Shown here: positions 12,576-34,932 of the stretch, one piece after another
Layout: every line of letters begins with the position of its first letter
How positions within the stretch are numbered: the first letter of the stretch is position 1
NCBI GenBank assembly: GCA_014163555.1
Contig: JACJGO010000002.1
Location: 1 to 64,000, forward strand
Direction: 5' to 3'
Length of the DNA: 64,000 bases
Source: Flavisolibacter longurius
Lineage (GTDB): Bacteria > Bacteroidota > Bacteroidia > Chitinophagales > Chitinophagaceae
Made by a program: the position numbers and the translations under genes
The notes under the pieces: model-generated
Database searches by the model: none
What the model was told of the DNA's origin: nothing
The model's input: the letters and a program-made list of their open reading frames with translations, nothing else

Positions 12576-13229
12576 ATGAAATTTTACAACTGGCTGATTA
12601 AATACCGACTTTACCTTGGACTGGCTTTGATTGTGATTGGCCTGGCATTGAACCTGACCGTCAGCGGCTTCTGGCCGGTATTCCCACTTTACCTGATTGG
12701 CGTGATCCTTATTGCCGGTCATTTCTTTTTTGGCCCGCTGCGCCTTATCCAGGTGCACATGGAAGAAGGCAACATGGACGAAGCCGAGCGGATTGTCAAC
12801 TCCATCAAATATCCCAACCTGCTGTACAAACCCATTCGCTCGGTGTATTATACCCTCAAAGGAAACCTGGCTATGATGAAGCAGGATTTTGAAGGCGCCG
12901 AAAAAAACATGAAAAAAGGCCTCGACCTGGGCATGCCCATGAAAGAAGCCGAAGGTGCCAGCCTGCTGCAAATGGGAATGCTGGCCCTGCAGAAAAACGA
13001 CCTGAAACAGGGTGAAAGCTATATTCGCCAGGCCCTTCGCAAAGGCTTACCCGATAAGGAAAACCAGGCGGCTGCGTACCTGCAGATGTGTTCTATTATG
13101 ATGAACAAGCGGGAGTTCAGGGCGGCCAAAGATTTTTTCCGGAAGGCAAAAGCACTCAAGCCCACCACGCCGCAGATTGTTGACCAGATCAAACAAATCG
13201 AAAAATACATTTCCCGGATACCGGGTTGA
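12576..13229 (+). CDS. membrane-anchored TPR protein
   Basis: A 217-residue protein. Two hydrophobic segments (residues ~12-30 and ~34-52) anchor it in the inner membrane, followed by a basic turn and about four tetratricopeptide-like helix pairs (AERIVNSIKYPN, AEKNMKKGLDLG, GESYIRQALRKG, AKDFFRKAKALKP). TPRs mediate protein contacts; the partner is unknown. The start at 12576 is 20 bases after a -7 element. Its stop codon touches the palindrome that separates it from the convergent SRPBCC gene. Confidence 0.75.
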   Translation: MKFYNWLIKYRLYLGLALIVIGLALNLTVSGFWPVFPLYLIGVILIAGHFFFGPLRLIQVHMEEGNMDEAERIVNSIKYPNLLYKPIRSVYYTLKGNLAMMKQDFEGAEKNMKKGLDLGMPMKEAEGASLLQMGMLALQKNDLKQGESYIRQALRKGLPDKENQAAAYLQMCSIMMNKREFRAAKDFFRKAKALKPTTPQIVDQIKQIEKYISRIPG

Positions 13230-13232
13230 GGT

Positions 13233-13331
13233 CAATGGACAATTGACAACAGGCAACAGGCAAAGGGTCGCTCCTTTGCCTGTTTCTTTTTCTTGCCCAT
13301 TGTCTATTGCCAATTGCTTATTGTCTATTGG
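13233..13331. repeat. period-7 word palindrome filling a stop-to-stop gap
   Basis: Left arm 13233-13267 is five 7-base units beginning CAA (CAATGGA, CAATTGA and so on). Right arm 13295-13329 is five units of the form GnnnATT (GCCCATT, GTCTATT). The centre forms a 10-base hairpin CAGGCAAAGG / CCTTTGCCTG. The array starts 3 bases after one stop codon and overlaps the stop codon of the opposing gene. Confidence 0.8.
13257..13290 (+). terminator. terminator at the centre of the palindrome
   Basis: CAGGCAAAGG (13257-13266) pairs with CCTTTGCCTG (13273-13282) and is followed by a T-rich run, so it can terminate the TPR gene transcript. Confidence 0.65.
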
Positions 13332-18479: not shown

Positions 18480-18533
18480 CAGGTTAAATACTTTATACGT
18501 AAATGAGAAAAGAAGCCATTGCACAAAAGCCGG

Positions 18534-18597
18534 GTGGTGAGTGGTCAGTGGTGAATGGTGAGTAACTACATTTTTTACCACTGACCACTCACCACTT
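18534..18597. repeat. period-7 word palindrome with 19-bp perfect arms
   Basis: Left arm units GTGGTGA, GTGGTCA and two more (18534-18561); right arm ACCACTG, ACCACTC, ACCACTT (18577-18597). Bases 18534-18552 and 18577-18595 are exact reverse complements. The same word family recurs at 34816-34928. It lies between the M1 peptidase start and the nucleotidyltransferase stop. Confidence 0.85.
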
Positions 18598-18658
18598 ACG
18601 GAGGATATTTATAAAACGGCTTGTTGTTTCAACTATAAAATTATGCCCGGGCAAATGT

Positions 18659-27518: not shown

Positions 27519-27529
27519 ATACGAAATGT

Positions 27530-27619
27530 GATAATTTGATAATTCGATAATTTGATAATGAGGTGTTGCTTACCGCAGTTTTTCCTTCATTATCTCATTA
27601 GCTAATTGGAAAATTAAAA
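27530..27619. repeat. period-8 GATAATT word palindrome in the atp operon
   Basis: Left arm is four 8-base units, 27530-27561 (GATAATTT, GATAATTC and so on). Right arm is four units at 27588-27619 (CATTATCT, CATTAGCT, then AATT-type). It lies between atpE and atpF. Confidence 0.75.
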
Positions 27620-29383: not shown

Positions 29384-31183
29384 TTAAACGAGGCTTGTTT
29401 TCTTTTCAAACTGCATCCGGTGCAATTTGCTGTAAAAGCCACCCTTTGCCAGCAGTTCCTGATGGGTGCCTACCTCTTTCAATTCGCCTTTATCCAACAC
29501 AATAATCATATCAGCCCGCTGAATGGTGCTCAAGCGGTGGGCAATCACAATAGACGTACGGTCGGCCACCAGGCGGTTGATAGCTTTTTCGATCAGGTAT
29601 TCGCTTTCGGTGTCAATGGAAGATGTAGCCTCATCCAATATTAAGATGGATGGATTGTACAGGAGGGCCCGGATAAAAGAAAGTAATTGGCGCTGCCCCA
29701 GCGAAAGCGTGGCGCCGCGTTCCATCACATTGTAATCGTACCCGCCGGGAAGCTGCAAAATGAAGTCATGCATGCCAATCAGTTTGGCGGCTTCCTCTAC
29801 CCTTTCCCGCGGAATTTCGGGGTTCATCAGGGTAATGTTGTCCAGCACGGAGCCGGGAAAGAGAAACACATCCTGCAACACGACCCCGATATTTTTGCGC
29901 AGCAAATCCGTGTTATACTTATCTATAGATACATCATCAATCCGGATCTGTCCGCGCTGAATCTGGTACAGGCGGTTCAGCAGCGAGATGATGGTGGTTT
30001 TTCCACTGCCGGTATGGCCAACAATAGCGACGGTTTGCCCGGGCTCGATGCGGAACGAAATGTCTTTCAGTACCGAATGATCTTCGGTATAGCCAAACCA
30101 AACCTGGTCGAATTCGATCTTTCCCTTCACAACGTTCGGCGCATACGCATCGGGGGGCGAAGGCGGCAGTTCGTCCTCGTTGTCCAGCACCTTGAATACC
30201 CGTTCGCTGGCGATCATGCCCATCTGCAGCACGTTGAACTTATCGGCAATTACCCGCAACGGACGAAAGATCAGGTTGAGGTAAAGTATAAACGCTGTTA
30301 TTTTCCCCTCCTGGCCTGACTGCACGGCAATGGCCTCTTTGGCCGCCCAATACACGATCAGTCCCATGGAAAGCGCCAGCACAATTTCTACCAGCGGGAA
30401 AAACACCGAATAAGCAAAAATGGCGTGGATGTTGGCGTTGCGGTGCTCCTTGTTGATGGCATCGAATTTTTCCCGTTCCCGCTTTTCCGCAGCAAAGGCC
30501 TGTACAATGTACATACCCGTGATGTGCTCCTGCACAAAAGCATTAAGGGCCGATACGGCATTACGTACGCGGTGAAAGGACCGGTTAACGCTTTCTTTAA
30601 AATAGTAGGTACCTATAATAATAATCGGAAAGGGAATCAGCGAGATCAGGGTGAGTTGCCAATCGGTCCAGAACATAATACCCAGTACGCAAAGAATGGA
30701 AAGCAGGTCGGCGATAATGGGAATCAGGCCATCGGCAAAAATATCGTTGATGCGTTCGATATCGTCCACTGTACGGGTGGTAAGTGTGCCGATGGGGGTA
30801 CGGTCGAACTGGCGCAGGTTGAGGTTGAGCACCTTGCCAAAGACCTTTACCCGCATATCTTTTACCACGGTTTGGCCCAGCCAGGCGGTGGTATAGGAAA
30901 AATAAAACCGCAGCACGGTTTCCAAAAGCGTAAAGCCAATCTGCAGCACAATCACCCATACCAAGGCATCAATGGCTCTGTCGGCAAAACTGCGGTCGGC
31001 GCCAGCAATGTATTTATCTACGGTAAGCTGAATGAGAAAAGGCCGCACCGGCGTGAAGGCTGCCAGCACAATGGCCAGCACAATAGAGCCGATAAACCGG
31101 CCCCGGTACGGGCGGGTGAATTGCAAGACCCTGTTCAATAAGCTAAAATCAAAAAAAGACTTCTTCCCGCCGGTAGTGCTCAT
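29384..31183 (-). CDS. MsbA-like ABC transporter, fused permease and ATPase
   Basis: A 599-residue half-transporter. Six membrane helices (residues ~30-310) precede the nucleotide-binding domain: Walker A GHTGSGKTTI, Q-loop VVLQDVFLFPG, signature LSLGQRQLLSFIRALL, Walker B ILILDEATSSID and switch His in VIAHRLSTI. A homodimer exporting lipid, peptide or drug substrates is expected. The signature is LSLGQ rather than the more usual LSGGQ. Its start lies 10 bases from the GTTCAC word array. Confidence 0.92.
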   Translation of the reverse strand: MSTTGGKKSFFDFSLLNRVLQFTRPYRGRFIGSIVLAIVLAAFTPVRPFLIQLTVDKYIAGADRSFADRAIDALVWVIVLQIGFTLLETVLRFYFSYTTAWLGQTVVKDMRVKVFGKVLNLNLRQFDRTPIGTLTTRTVDDIERINDIFADGLIPIIADLLSILCVLGIMFWTDWQLTLISLIPFPIIIIGTYYFKESVNRSFHRVRNAVSALNAFVQEHITGMYIVQAFAAEKREREKFDAINKEHRNANIHAIFAYSVFFPLVEIVLALSMGLIVYWAAKEAIAVQSGQEGKITAFILYLNLIFRPLRVIADKFNVLQMGMIASERVFKVLDNEDELPPSPPDAYAPNVVKGKIEFDQVWFGYTEDHSVLKDISFRIEPGQTVAIVGHTGSGKTTIISLLNRLYQIQRGQIRIDDVSIDKYNTDLLRKNIGVVLQDVFLFPGSVLDNITLMNPEIPRERVEEAAKLIGMHDFILQLPGGYDYNVMERGATLSLGQRQLLSFIRALLYNPSILILDEATSSIDTESEYLIEKAINRLVADRTSIVIAHRLSTIQRADMIIVLDKGELKEVGTHQELLAKGGFYSKLHRMQFEKKTSLV

Positions 31184-31193
31184 GTTTCAAAAA

Positions 31194-31225
31194 GTTCACA
31201 AGTTCGCTCGTTCACGAGTTCACAA
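31194..31225. repeat. period-8 GTTCAC array downstream of the four-helix-bundle gene
   Basis: Four phased 8-base units (GTTCACAA at both ends, GTTCGCTC and GTTCACGA between). It begins 8 bases past the stop of the four-helix-bundle gene (in its direction of transcription) and uses the same word as the palindrome upstream of that gene. Confidence 0.8.
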
Positions 31226-31232
31226 GTTAATT

Positions 31233-31628
31233 TTATCGGTCTTTATATTTTACGCCTTTCAGTTCGGATGTTTCCAGGTAAGCGATCAACTTTTGCAGCA
31301 TAACGATGATCTCTTTCGACAAGGCAAAGAGTTCATCAAATTCTTCTTTTTGCACATAAGCCCTGTCCAGTGCCCGGTAAAGCTGCGAACGAAGTTCGCC
31401 ACAAGAACCTTTCGCAACGTAAAGAAACTGCAGAAACTCTTTATTGCCACTTCGCTCAAAACCTTCTGCAATATTATCCATGATAGAACCGGCAGCGCCT
31501 TCAATTTGTGCAATCAGGCGGTAGTTCCGCTGAAAACGGCCTGTATCGATATAATTGCCAACTTTTTGGTTGAGAACTCTTGCCTTCTGCCAGGCCTGGA
31601 TTTCTTCAAAGCAGGTAAAGGTTGCCAT
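31233..31628 (-). CDS. four-helix bundle protein, S23/IVP family
   Basis: A 131-residue protein of the 23S rRNA intervening-sequence (S23) family: FEEIQAWQKARVLNQKV in helix 1, then IAQIEGAAGSIMDNIAEGFE, FLYVAKGSCGELRSQLYRA in helix 3 and a final amphipathic helix. The family forms pentameric barrels with basic surfaces that bind nucleic acid; Avd of diversity-generating retroelements is a homologue. It is not within rRNA here. The gene fits exactly between two arrays of the same GTTCAC word, suggesting that gene and arrays are one mobile or maintained element inserted between two unrelated minus-strand genes. Confidence 0.9.
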   Translation of the reverse strand: MATFTCFEEIQAWQKARVLNQKVGNYIDTGRFQRNYRLIAQIEGAAGSIMDNIAEGFERSGNKEFLQFLYVAKGSCGELRSQLYRALDRAYVQKEEFDELFALSKEIIVMLQKLIAYLETSELKGVKYKDR

Positions 31629-31636
31629 ACGAACAA

Positions 31637-31731
31637 GTTTATGGGTTTACGAGTTCACTTGTTCACAAGTTAGTATATAAGTTTTCGGACCACAACTTGT
31701 GAACATGTAAACCTGTGAACGTGTGAACTTG
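31637..31731. repeat. period-8 GTTCAC palindrome upstream of the four-helix-bundle gene
   Basis: Left arm is four units at 31637-31668 (GTTTATGG, GTTTACGA, then GTTCAC types). Right arm is four TGTGAACn-type units at 31698-31729. TGTTCACAAGTT (31660-31671) and AACTTGTGAACA (31694-31705) pair perfectly. The right end stops 4 bases before the next gene's stop codon. Confidence 0.85.
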
Positions 31732-31734
31732 CCT

Positions 31735-33921
31735 TTACGCTCCGCGTTCCTCGCCGCCCATCGCATTTTTGTAGGCTTTGATAAAAATGGCACCCAGGTT
31801 TTTGTGCGGGGGCACATAGTCGCCGAAGCCGTCGATGTTTTTGTATTTGCGTTCAAATTCCCGCCAGAAAGGAATCCAATCGATGTTTTTCCCGGTACGC
31901 AGGTTTTCCATCATCATGTCGATGAGCGGCTGGTTAAACACCAGCTTCCCGATTTGCTTGGAAGAGATGATGTGGGCATCTTCGGCATGCTCCAACACAT
32001 CATGAATCACATTGTAGCCGCCGCACGAACCCATGAACACGATCTTGGCGGTTGGCGCCAGCTGCTCGATGGTATACGGAGCATAATAACTGTGACCGCG
32101 GTGAATGACTACCGTAGGCTCCAGCCCTTTTTCGGCCAGGTAATCGCCCAGCGCAGCCTGCGCCCGGTCCACCTCACCGGAGACTTCGTCGAGCGGTTTA
32201 TTGGCGAAAATCTTTATCGGCCGGCCTTTGATAGAGGTAAAGGTGATCCACTGGCGGTTTTCCTCCCGGCGCCAGAGGCTGGAAGAAAACTGCGGAACAA
32301 AGTTGGCATAGTTCATCCGGCCGTCTTTATCGCCATAAAAAAATACCTGTATCACTACCTGGCCGGAGTCGCTGCCCCCAGCCAGCGTTTTATAATTTAC
32401 GCTGTACACGGGCGGTATGTTAAACTCCCTGGAAAGGTCAATGGTAGTATCCTCGGAAGAACGGAATAACTTATACAGGAGGTCGTAGATCACTAAACCC
32501 CGCTTGTTGTTGCTGCGGGCGGCTTCTTCGTAATTGAGCCGTACGTTGGCAAGCATCTGGTCGGCCACGGGCTTCATGGTTTCGGCAATGGAGGCATAAG
32601 AGTCAGCCACATCCACACCGTCTTCCAGTCCATCCGATTTATCCAGGTTGTTTACAAAAGCCGTCATCAGCACCCTTGCCCGGTCGCCGTCGGGGAACGA
32701 AGCCAGGAAGTTTGTCAGGGTGTTGTAACCGGCTGCCACCTTAATGAATTTTTTGAAATAATCAAAGCCAACGCTCATCAGGAGCGAGTCGCCGCGGTTA
32801 CCGATCTTCTGCATCAGGCGTGGGTACACACCTTTTGTATAACTGGATGTATACAGGTCGGTTTCGCCGGCAATCACCAGGTAATACAGTTCCTGTGCGG
32901 TCAGCGGGTTGAGGGCAGCAAAGCGAACCGCGGGGTTTTCCACCTCGTGCAGATCGTTGATGCTTTTGATAAAATTATCCAGTCCTTTTTTGGTCAGCAT
33001 GGCCTGGAGGGCCTTCATCTCCATGATCTTTTCTCCTTCCAGTTGACGCTGCACATAATCCATACGGGTCTTTACCAGCAGCTTGTAATATTTTACGGGA
33101 TCGTCTTTAACGGCTTCAATTTCGTCAATGGTCTGGCGTCCCTTGATCAGGTTGTCCAGGAAAGGAAAGTACAACTGGCCGCTGGTGCTTTTGGCCATTT
33201 TGGATATGGTACGGATGATCGGGTCGTCGATGGAGCGGATGGCATATCCCAGCTTGTTATCGGCTGCGGCATAGTCGTACAACTGGCGCGGATTCTTATG
33301 ACCGGCAATTTTGATCAGGCTATCGCGGAAGGGAACATCAGGGTTGTCTTTGAGGGTAATGAACACCTTATCAGGGTAAAGCGTAGCAAATTTCAGCACC
33401 ACTTTATTCTGCACGCTACGCAGGCCCGGGTTGCCATCAAAGGCCTGGGAGGCTAAAAGCACATTGGCCACTTCGTACTCCTGCCGGTCCACGATCGCTT
33501 CTATGCTTTGTATTTTTTTATCCTGCTGAATGGCATCGTTATAGGCCGTCAACAATATGGGCAGGTTGGAGGGTGTAAAGGTCCGGCTGCGAAAATCAGT
33601 GGAAACTTTCCTGAGCATCCGCTCCAGGCCGCGCAGGTAGCCGATCTTTCGCTGGTCGCCCATGCTGTCGCTGTCGATACTGCACTGCAGGGCATTGACC
33701 TGCTGGATCAGGGCATGATTTACATAGTGTACAACATCGTCATTATCGCCTTTTGCAAGACCCGATTTCAGTACAGCAGCCTGGGCTTTATCTACATTGT
33801 CATGCCAGAGCCGGCGACTGATAGGCGGCTTGCAGGTAAGATCGGTAACGGATTGAGCCGACAGTGCAAACGCAAAAAAACTAAAACACACAGATAAAAC
33901 AGCTCGGTTGGAGTAAGACAT
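31735..33921 (-). CDS. large secreted protein with clan-CD-peptidase-like C-terminus
   Basis: A ~728-residue protein with a signal peptide (SVCFSFFAFALSAQ). Most of it is helical and has no recognised domain. Near the C-terminus, VVIHRGHSYY followed 20-odd residues later by KIVFMGSCGGYN has the spacing of the His and Cys blocks of clan CD proteases (caspase, CHAT, gingipain types): a hydrophobic strand ending in His-Gly and one ending in small-Cys. IISSKQIGK after it fits the next strand. Similarity to any peptidase family would need profile searching. Start ATG 33921 or 33930. Confidence 0.7.
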   Translation of the reverse strand: MSYSNRAVLSVCFSFFAFALSAQSVTDLTCKPPISRRLWHDNVDKAQAAVLKSGLAKGDNDDVVHYVNHALIQQVNALQCSIDSDSMGDQRKIGYLRGLERMLRKVSTDFRSRTFTPSNLPILLTAYNDAIQQDKKIQSIEAIVDRQEYEVANVLLASQAFDGNPGLRSVQNKVVLKFATLYPDKVFITLKDNPDVPFRDSLIKIAGHKNPRQLYDYAAADNKLGYAIRSIDDPIIRTISKMAKSTSGQLYFPFLDNLIKGRQTIDEIEAVKDDPVKYYKLLVKTRMDYVQRQLEGEKIMEMKALQAMLTKKGLDNFIKSINDLHEVENPAVRFAALNPLTAQELYYLVIAGETDLYTSSYTKGVYPRLMQKIGNRGDSLLMSVGFDYFKKFIKVAAGYNTLTNFLASFPDGDRARVLMTAFVNNLDKSDGLEDGVDVADSYASIAETMKPVADQMLANVRLNYEEAARSNNKRGLVIYDLLYKLFRSSEDTTIDLSREFNIPPVYSVNYKTLAGGSDSGQVVIQVFFYGDKDGRMNYANFVPQFSSSLWRREENRQWITFTSIKGRPIKIFANKPLDEVSGEVDRAQAALGDYLAEKGLEPTVVIHRGHSYYAPYTIEQLAPTAKIVFMGSCGGYNVIHDVLEHAEDAHIISSKQIGKLVFNQPLIDMMMENLRTGKNIDWIPFWREFERKYKNIDGFGDYVPPHKNLGAIFIKAYKNAMGGEERGA

Positions 33922-34819: not shown

Positions 34820-34928
34820 GTGGTGAGCTTTGAATGGTGAGTAAGAGAATCCAAATCTTATCTCAAAAAACCATGGAATCATACTAATTTATAGTACTCA
34901 ACTCACCACTGACGACTCACCACTCACG
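34816..34928. repeat. period-7 GTGAGTG palindrome between regulator and kinase
   Basis: Left arm is four units at 34816-34843 (GTGAGTG, GTGAGCT and two more); right arm is four units at 34901-34928 (ACTCACC, ACTGACG and so on). A 13-base exact pairing closes the outer ends (34815-34827 with 34916-34928). It overlaps the stop codon upstream and ends 4 bases before the next ATG, occupying the whole gap. Confidence 0.85.
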
Positions 34929-34932
34929 AAAA

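Follow-up and report, generated by a model that had tools for sequence, protein, structure and literature searches.

The window analyzed here, 64,000 nucleotides of the Flavisolibacter longurius genome, contains a small gene framed by arrays of one short word, and the arrangement raises the question of whether gene and arrays form a single genetic unit and, if so, of what kind. We conclude that the block is probably a copy of a repeat element in two parts, an S23 gene and a frame of inverted short arrays, and that this element is mobile and driven by the S23 protein itself. The gene (31233–31628, minus strand; 396 bases, 131 amino acids) encodes a four-helix-bundle protein of the S23/IVP family. 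It had been described in the first-pass annotation as lying between a GTTCACnn array and a GTTCACnn palindrome; the sequence confirms this, and three arms can be distinguished. Arm 1 (31194–31228, plus strand), on the 3' side of the gene, comprises four 8-base units (GTTCAC AA, GTTCGC TC, GTTCAC GA, GTTCAC AA), the second with GTTCGC, and closes with a fifth GTT. It stands immediately upstream of the start codon (31183) of an ABC transporter gene (29384–31183, minus strand). Arm 2 (31637–31671), a period-8 array with its GTTCAC sense on the plus strand, lies between the gene and arm 3 and reads GTGAAC on the gene strand. A 22-base loop (31672–31693) separates it from arm 3 (31694–31728, minus strand; four GTTCACnn units plus GTT), the 5' arm of the gene, and together they form a palindrome of the type also found without a gene. 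Arm 3 lies directly past the upstream gene's stop codon (ORF end 31735). The 731-residue product of that gene had no match at 1e-3 in Pfam or NCBIfam, so that its earlier clan-CD label stays putative. Read along the gene strand, a GTTCAC arm, the loop and a GTGAAC arm precede the gene, and another GTGAAC arm follows it. As first described, the block lies within the gap between a start codon and a stop codon (31183 to 31735); it occupies the whole of this gap between two co-directional genes, all on the minus strand.

The assignment to the S23/IVP family held up. The protein matches PF05635 (3.4e-30; 104.8 bits, cut-off 33.8) and TIGR02436 (1.3e-28; 99.4 bits, cut-off 24) over the whole domain in each case, with PF05635 as its sole Pfam match at 1e-3, and a phmmer comparison with XCC0516 (2gsc) gave 9.6e-10. 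A single-sequence structure model has four helices at low confidence (pLDDT 61). The isoelectric point is 7.7, and the median over 157 S23 cores is 8.6; since this is merely mildly basic, it is by itself no argument for nucleic-acid binding. No match to phage records was found at E 1e-5. Unlike the intervening sequences (IVSs) of 23S rRNA, the block lies between protein genes and not inside rRNA genes, and a tRNA was the sole Rfam match across the window. Folded as RNA, the palindrome gave z-scores of -5.6 (plus strand) and -5.3 (minus strand); the single arm at 31190–31232 folded alone gave -0.8.

If gene and arrays belong together, other S23 genes should carry arrays as well. We assembled 158 S23 loci: 10 from the window's own genome (G000; 5.66 Mb, ten S23 genes), 68 from relatives and 80 named loci. 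The last come from a scan with a narrower S23 alignment, as the best 80 of 549 relatives, and are therefore biased to one S23 subfamily. Two loci (L036, L038) were left out for short flanks, leaving 156. In a blind test, we reverse-complemented the right flank of each locus and aligned the left flank to it, with mismatched pairs as the null (median 12, 95% point 17, 99% point 22). The inverted match exceeded 17 at 98/156 loci, where about 8 were expected (own 6/10, relatives 47/66, named 45/80), as against 11/730 for the remaining ORFs across 864 kb of G000 and 1/220 of those encoding 80–200 amino acids. Many other S23 genes therefore carry arrays that match from one side of the gene to the other, and the proposal came through the refuting tests set in the first-pass annotation. 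Matches in direct orientation above their own 95% null were found at 1/10, 3/66 and 18/80 loci of the three sets. The inverted match was insignificant at 58/156 loci, including 4/10 of G000. By eye, all ten G000 genes are flanked by arrays, with about nine words among them; L010 and L012 have the same word, and the arms at L011 and L012 are weak. A test for shared 5-mers was discarded as too permissive, being passed by 60% of mismatched pairs.

Some kind of array was present in 134/312 flanks (period 7 in 83, 14 in 20, 8 in 24, other in 7) and in four of at most 156 control stretches. The GTTCAC family of the window has period 8, whereas most S23-flank arrays have period 7 or 14 (103/134). Five of the 13 named loci not labelled Bacteroidota exceeded 17 (three Chlorobiota, one Neomarinimicrobiota, one labelled only as bacterium); those that did not were from Alphaproteobacteria, Nitrospirales, Omnitrophota, SAR324, Liptonbacteria, Anaerolineae, Gottesmanbacteria and a Clostridia MAG. 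Short arrays were seen by eye at some non-Bacteroidota loci scoring 17 or less. Four plasmid loci (one from Riemerella, two from Nostoc, one from Calothrix), taken from 12 records among the matches listed, scored 24–34 inverted and 11–15 direct.

Some frames sit at sites that S23 genes occupy repeatedly. In 28 loci, from as many genomes across Bacteroidota, the gene lies between the same two genes, which we take from resemblance to be fadJ and fadA. At this site 15/28 loci exceeded 17, and true arm pairs scored a mean of 18.0 against 12.7 for mismatched pairs (0/5000 permutations as good), the true partner ranking first in just 5/28. The better fit of own arm pairs indicates that both arms tend to change together, and the persistence of S23 at one site in 28 loci indicates that some copies are long-lived. 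Recurrence was also noted among the named loci at a six-locus site (L095, L098, L109, L133, L150, L158) and a ten-locus site (including L087, L092 and L123); one recurrent site precedes what is presumably, by resemblance, a succinate dehydrogenase iron-sulfur gene. An in-frame stop interrupts at least 12 S23 genes, which is what decaying copies would show. In the sole two unsaturated pairs of 11, dN/dS was 0.06 and 0.07.

We then asked whether the word travels with the gene, using pairs of loci without detectable homology between their neighbors and, as threshold, the 99% point of 812 pairs lacking S23 similarity (6 of which exceed it). The word was shared in 8/8 pairs at unrelated sites with at least 75% S23 identity; these represent four lineages and are not independent. 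The window's own lineage gives an example: its relatives with 76–81% identity occupy other sites in G003 and G008 and carry the same word. Sharing fell to 2/5 at 70–75%, 4/11 at 65–70%, 7/34 at 60–65% and 16/208 at 55–60%, then to 28/901 and 36/1410 in the bins down to 45%, 27/1387 at 40–45% and 7/1288 at 35–40%, so that the link is nearly gone below about 55%. The S23 leader may contribute part of the left-flank signal. With right arms alone and a 1% baseline, the counts were 4/8 at 75% or more, 3/5 at 70–75%, then 5/11, 10/34, 30/208 (55–60%), 87/901, 107/1410 and 67/1387 (40–45%), and are thus raised at low identity too. Sense outscored antisense in all 8 pairs at or above 75%; only these 8 count, because the other 13 of 21 polarity pairs had been picked by sense similarity. 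Among close relatives, then, the claim that gene and arrays are one unit is supported. It does not extend to a global link of word and protein: a Mantel test that set the similarity of S23 proteins against that of their words was null (r 0.03, with 308/2000 permutations as high). A word–protein code, if there is any, must therefore change fast.

What a given site contains differs between relatives. At the window gap, which the first-pass annotation had proposed to compare for an empty site, gene-less frames were seen by eye in G003, G006 and G008 with GTTCAC arrays and in G014 and G012 with other words. The array is absent from G002, G004, G005, G007, G013 and G015, the next gene differs in G009 and G011, and other repeats are present in G010 and G016 (all by eye). 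G008 encodes a 76% relative of the window S23 protein at another site, where G000 in turn has a GTTCAC frame without a gene; the two genomes thus have gene and empty frame the opposite way round at the two sites.

A wider comparison was made with G014, the closest relative of G000 among the genomes compared, for which 9 of its ten S23 genes were taken. In 11 of 14 comparable S23 slots the other genome has an array or an S23 gene, and in 3 it has neither; arrays occur in 59/536 gaps (binomial 7.6e-9, slots treated as independent). Three slots hold dissimilar S23 genes in the two genomes (one pair without a BLAST hit, the others at 24% and 37% identity) between neighbors that are 82–98% identical, and the arms differ at all three. 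In the L015/L177 pair, the flanks agree on both sides up to a few bases from the outer ends of the arms. L009 has a weak partial match in G014. At the rny–rplS slot (L010, L028, L029, L173), the S23 gene of G000 points the opposite way to that of G001, G012 and G014; by eye, the arms there enclose a terminator-like hairpin besides S23, and the hairpin differs between sisters. At one further slot of G000 (L263:1850–2620) we noted by eye a Y1/RAYT-transposase-like gene with its own GGCCATGC palindrome; the same slot in G008 (L183) has an S23 gene with arrays instead. No near-identical S23 copies were found among those taken from six genomes as partial sets, the best pair reaching 82%. Neither target-site duplication nor an excision product was seen, and the slots of L014, L175, L179 and L165, where the relative has no arrays, are too diverged for a duplication to be read by eye.

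Arrays also occur without a gene, both in the window and elsewhere in the genome. The window contains 5 period-8 and 9 period-7 regions, compared with 0–1 in each of three Markov shuffles. A gene-less palindromic period-7 pair at 13228–13331 (fold z -3.65) agrees in word with the S23 locus L015 (scores 21 and 22). The gene-less period-8 GATAATnn array at 27520–27619 (fold z -2.1) has an inverted arm of weaker make; its left arm (27520–27569) matches the word of L014 at 21, its right arm at just 13. The palindromic period-7 array at 18529–18602 (GTGGTGA word, fold z -9.9) has, by eye, a like word beside the S23 genes L176 of G014 and L187 of G015. The gene-less period-7 array at 34896–34931 (ACTCACC word) reaches only 14 with its best own S23 match. 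The suggestion that the other window arrays are gene-less relatives of the block is supported at 13228–13331 and 27520–27569, which match the words of two other S23 genes of the same genome. One matching word describes the arms of the window block; it does not describe the ten S23 genes of G000, with their roughly nine words.

Across G000 there are 76 exact GTTCACnnGTTCAC matches, which were grouped by hand into about 39 places, and none of the reversed pattern. Among 36 stretches taken for the GTTCAC places outside the window, arms of at least three units occur in both orientations in 13, in one orientation in 21 and in neither in 2. Such arms number 47, of which 40 are exactly four units long; the rest comprise 4 arms of three units and 3 of five. 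An extra GTT follows one period past the last unit in 45/50 arms, the window included, while one period ahead of the first unit GTT is outside the six commonest triplets; the typical arm in G000 is GTT(CACnnGTT)x4. A nearly constant length and a polar structure make this arm unlike a slippage repeat. The spacers in the 36 stretches are biased (AA 37, GG 22; CA, GC and TA once each). Four arms have the order AA-GG-TC in common, as if these were copies of common descent. By eye, GTTCAC arms, often single, are nested in or adjoin ACGTGAAAC palindromes at L205, L208, L214, L216, L218, L220, L230, L232, L234 and L240:17762–17924.

In 464 kb of G000, 26/36 arrays are intergenic. An inverted partner lies no more than 200 bases away for 17/26 of these, and at 1.2–1.4 kb for 0/26. 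In 864 kb we counted 67 gene-less intergenic array segments, 29 of which match an own S23 word at 17 or more. At a score of at least 20, at least one G000 segment is matched by 8/10 own S23 loci, 28/55 loci of the genus, 2/11 from G018–G037 and 3/80 from other taxa. With G003 (400 kb, 40 gene-less segments) the corresponding counts were 6/10, 8/55, 1/11 and 6/80.

Matched frames, linkage of word and gene among close relatives, gene-less relatives of the frame, and differing cassettes at the same site in sisters are all directly observed. S23 lineages have words of their own, the arm in the window lineage being GTT(CACnnGTT)x4; gene and word are found together at different intergenic sites, and most GTTCAC frames of G000 have no gene, in the manner of non-autonomous copies. 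From these observations we infer how the element might work. An S23 pentamer may bind arms of its own word, as a DNA hairpin or as RNA, and may promote copying or capture of the framed DNA through host replication or recombination enzymes. We know of no catalytic domain in S23, so movement would need host enzymes. S23 would then stand to its arrays as the RAYT transposase stands to REPINs. Of the original label "mobile or programmed element," mobility is what the gene and frame swaps between relatives suggest, and "programmed" found no support. Against mobility, reciprocal gene presence could reflect reciprocal loss, and arms that enclose a hairpin besides S23 at rny–rplS are odd for a point insertion.

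Long residence, the lack of near-identical copies and of target duplications, the 58/156 unmatched loci, and positions inside operons leave room for another reading, in which the element regulates or is processed at the RNA level. The arms would pair in a polycistronic mRNA like the stem of an rRNA IVS, S23 would be made from the loop and bind the stem, and the unit would tune the expression of its neighbors, its spread being incidental. The gene-less arrays lie in co-directional gaps in 45 cases, convergent gaps in 19 and divergent gaps in 3 of 67 (from crude ORF calls and without a baseline), which is in keeping with this proposal. So are the RNA folds of the array palindromes, with z of -3.6 or lower in 3/4 and -2.1 in the fourth, and the operon gap that keeps S23 with matched arms in 28 loci. 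PMC4990558 also describes rRNA IVSs with S23 ORFs as being excised by RNase III. However, a cis-regulator would be expected to stay by its target, and one S23 lineage adjoins unrelated genes in different species, while the same site in sisters has dissimilar S23 genes and words, gene-less frames, or nothing. We consider this reading unlikely.

Alternatively, certain gaps might simply be permissive: repeats would expand there, template switching would copy them to the opposite arm, and S23 would happen to land between them. The reuse of slots between G000 and G014 fits such a scheme, as do the better-than-average match of arms within a locus and the L183 slot, where a Y1-transposase-like gene and its palindrome take the place of S23. 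On the other hand, other small ORFs are seldom framed (the 1/220 above), and flanks at Y1_Tnp genes are periodic in just 1/40. The near-constant, polar GTTCAC arm and the word that accompanies close S23 relatives to new sites also argue against chance landing, and we regard this explanation as improbable.

A very improbable alternative treats the arrays as ordinary REPs that Y1/RAYT transposases encoded in the same genomes move in trans, S23 being cargo. Y1_Tnp matches are indeed present in 29/38 genomes, and inverted-matching flanks above 17 were found at 12/20 Y1_Tnp genes examined. These flanks are non-periodic palindromes, however, and G025 (98% complete) has 6 S23 genes among the matches listed and no Y1_Tnp match. 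RAYT as the engine was rejected on repeat type. There is next to no probability that S23, as a homolog of the Avd protein of diversity-generating retroelements (DGRs), partners a reverse transcriptase that copies the arrays, because no RVT_1 match was found in G006, G008, G011, G012 or G016 (at least 92% complete, with 8–18 S23 genes among the matches listed), while G019, G021 and G022 have RVT_1 but no S23 among the matches listed; this distribution largely refutes a reverse transcriptase as the engine. The Pfam accession PF05635 occurs three times in PMC10053308.

Returning to the mobile, S23-driven element, we tentatively suggest a broader model, which we hold to be possible but not the likelier outcome. 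S23 would be a five-fold ring that reads five evenly spaced contacts in each arm (here, GTT triplets spaced by CACnn) and would thereby drive a class of selfish elements across Bacteroidota, Cyanobacteria and other phyla, underlying unexplained heptamer and octamer arrays including those of Xanthomonas and Nostoc. The TRAP ring, which reads spaced triplets, offers a likeness. The S23 protein of X. campestris is described as a homopentameric torus (Lin et al., 2006, cited in PMC4990558), and five GTTs per arm would suit such a ring.

Several phyla are known to have short heptamer and octamer arrays for which no partner gene had been described, and S23 is a possible partner. The link offers a testable function both for the S23 pentameric ring and for these partnerless arrays. 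If true, the known systems would gain one that is REPIN-like but relies on a protein other than a transposase, and the matching words that relatives at other places and in other species often carry suggest an undescribed family of mobile DNA elements. A search of titles and abstract openings in the open-access literature found no link of S23 genes to such arrays. This suggests that the association is undescribed, the heptamer arrays themselves being already known. We set the element apart as new because the definitions of REPIN/RAYT systems, rRNA IVSs and DGRs each depart from it at a defining point.

The Avd protein of DGRs shares the fold family of S23, is pentameric, and works with a reverse transcriptase and a template repeat; the S23 elements differ in that five S23-rich genomes have no RVT_1 match. 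Like heptamer simple-sequence repeats, S23-flank arrays are tandem, have units of about 7 bases (8 in the window family) and are mostly intergenic. In 23S rRNA IVSs, according to PMC4990558, complementary sequences on either side of an S23 ORF pair into a stem; the IVSs are patchy in distribution and treated as selfish, and the function of the S23 protein is there stated as unknown. S23 genes of the window type differ in being intergenic between protein genes, in having periodic arrays as arms, and in having several words per genome.

Among published arrays, the TAACTGA repeats of Beggiatoaceae, Cyanobacteria and Bacteroidetes are intergenic tandem heptamers with a horizontal-looking spread, and their author considers a repeat-binding protein as mobile element (PMC4679880). 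They differ in being direct repeats, mostly right before start codons in the main genome as that source describes it, and the terms "S23," "four helix" and "intervening" do not occur in PMC4679880. Heptamer arrays are also described for Xanthomonas, with the word GGGAATC: 186 and 183 arrays in two genomes, the majority of four units, with 70 and 75 convergent pairs. The Xanthomonas and Nostoc heptamer arrays are mostly intergenic and dispersed, with few between divergent ORFs (PMC4692102). These arrays may be the same thing as S23 frames. They differ in that no gene partner is reported, with "S23" and "helix bundle" absent from the main text, and the authors find generally no link of the Xanthomonas arrays to mobile elements, which counts against the mobile reading.

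A close counterpart is the REPIN/RAYT system, whose logic the first-pass annotation had already invoked. PMC3116915 describes REPINs as dispersed extragenic inverted doublets with hairpin potential, in families tied to particular genes and with non-autonomous copies. S23 frames are likewise dispersed inverted doublets; the S23 gene lies inside a copy of its own repeat, and gene-less copies exist. They differ in that the S23 protein is a four-helix bundle with no Y1/HUH tyrosine transposase domain, and in that S23 repeats are arrays of 7–8-base units, whereas REPs are non-periodic palindromes tagged with GTAG or CGTC. Given that the logic of the element is REPIN-like, a variant of a REPIN-type system would be the more cautious description; the best reading is a repeat element of REPIN/RAYT-like type, so far undescribed, that has a protein other than a transposase.
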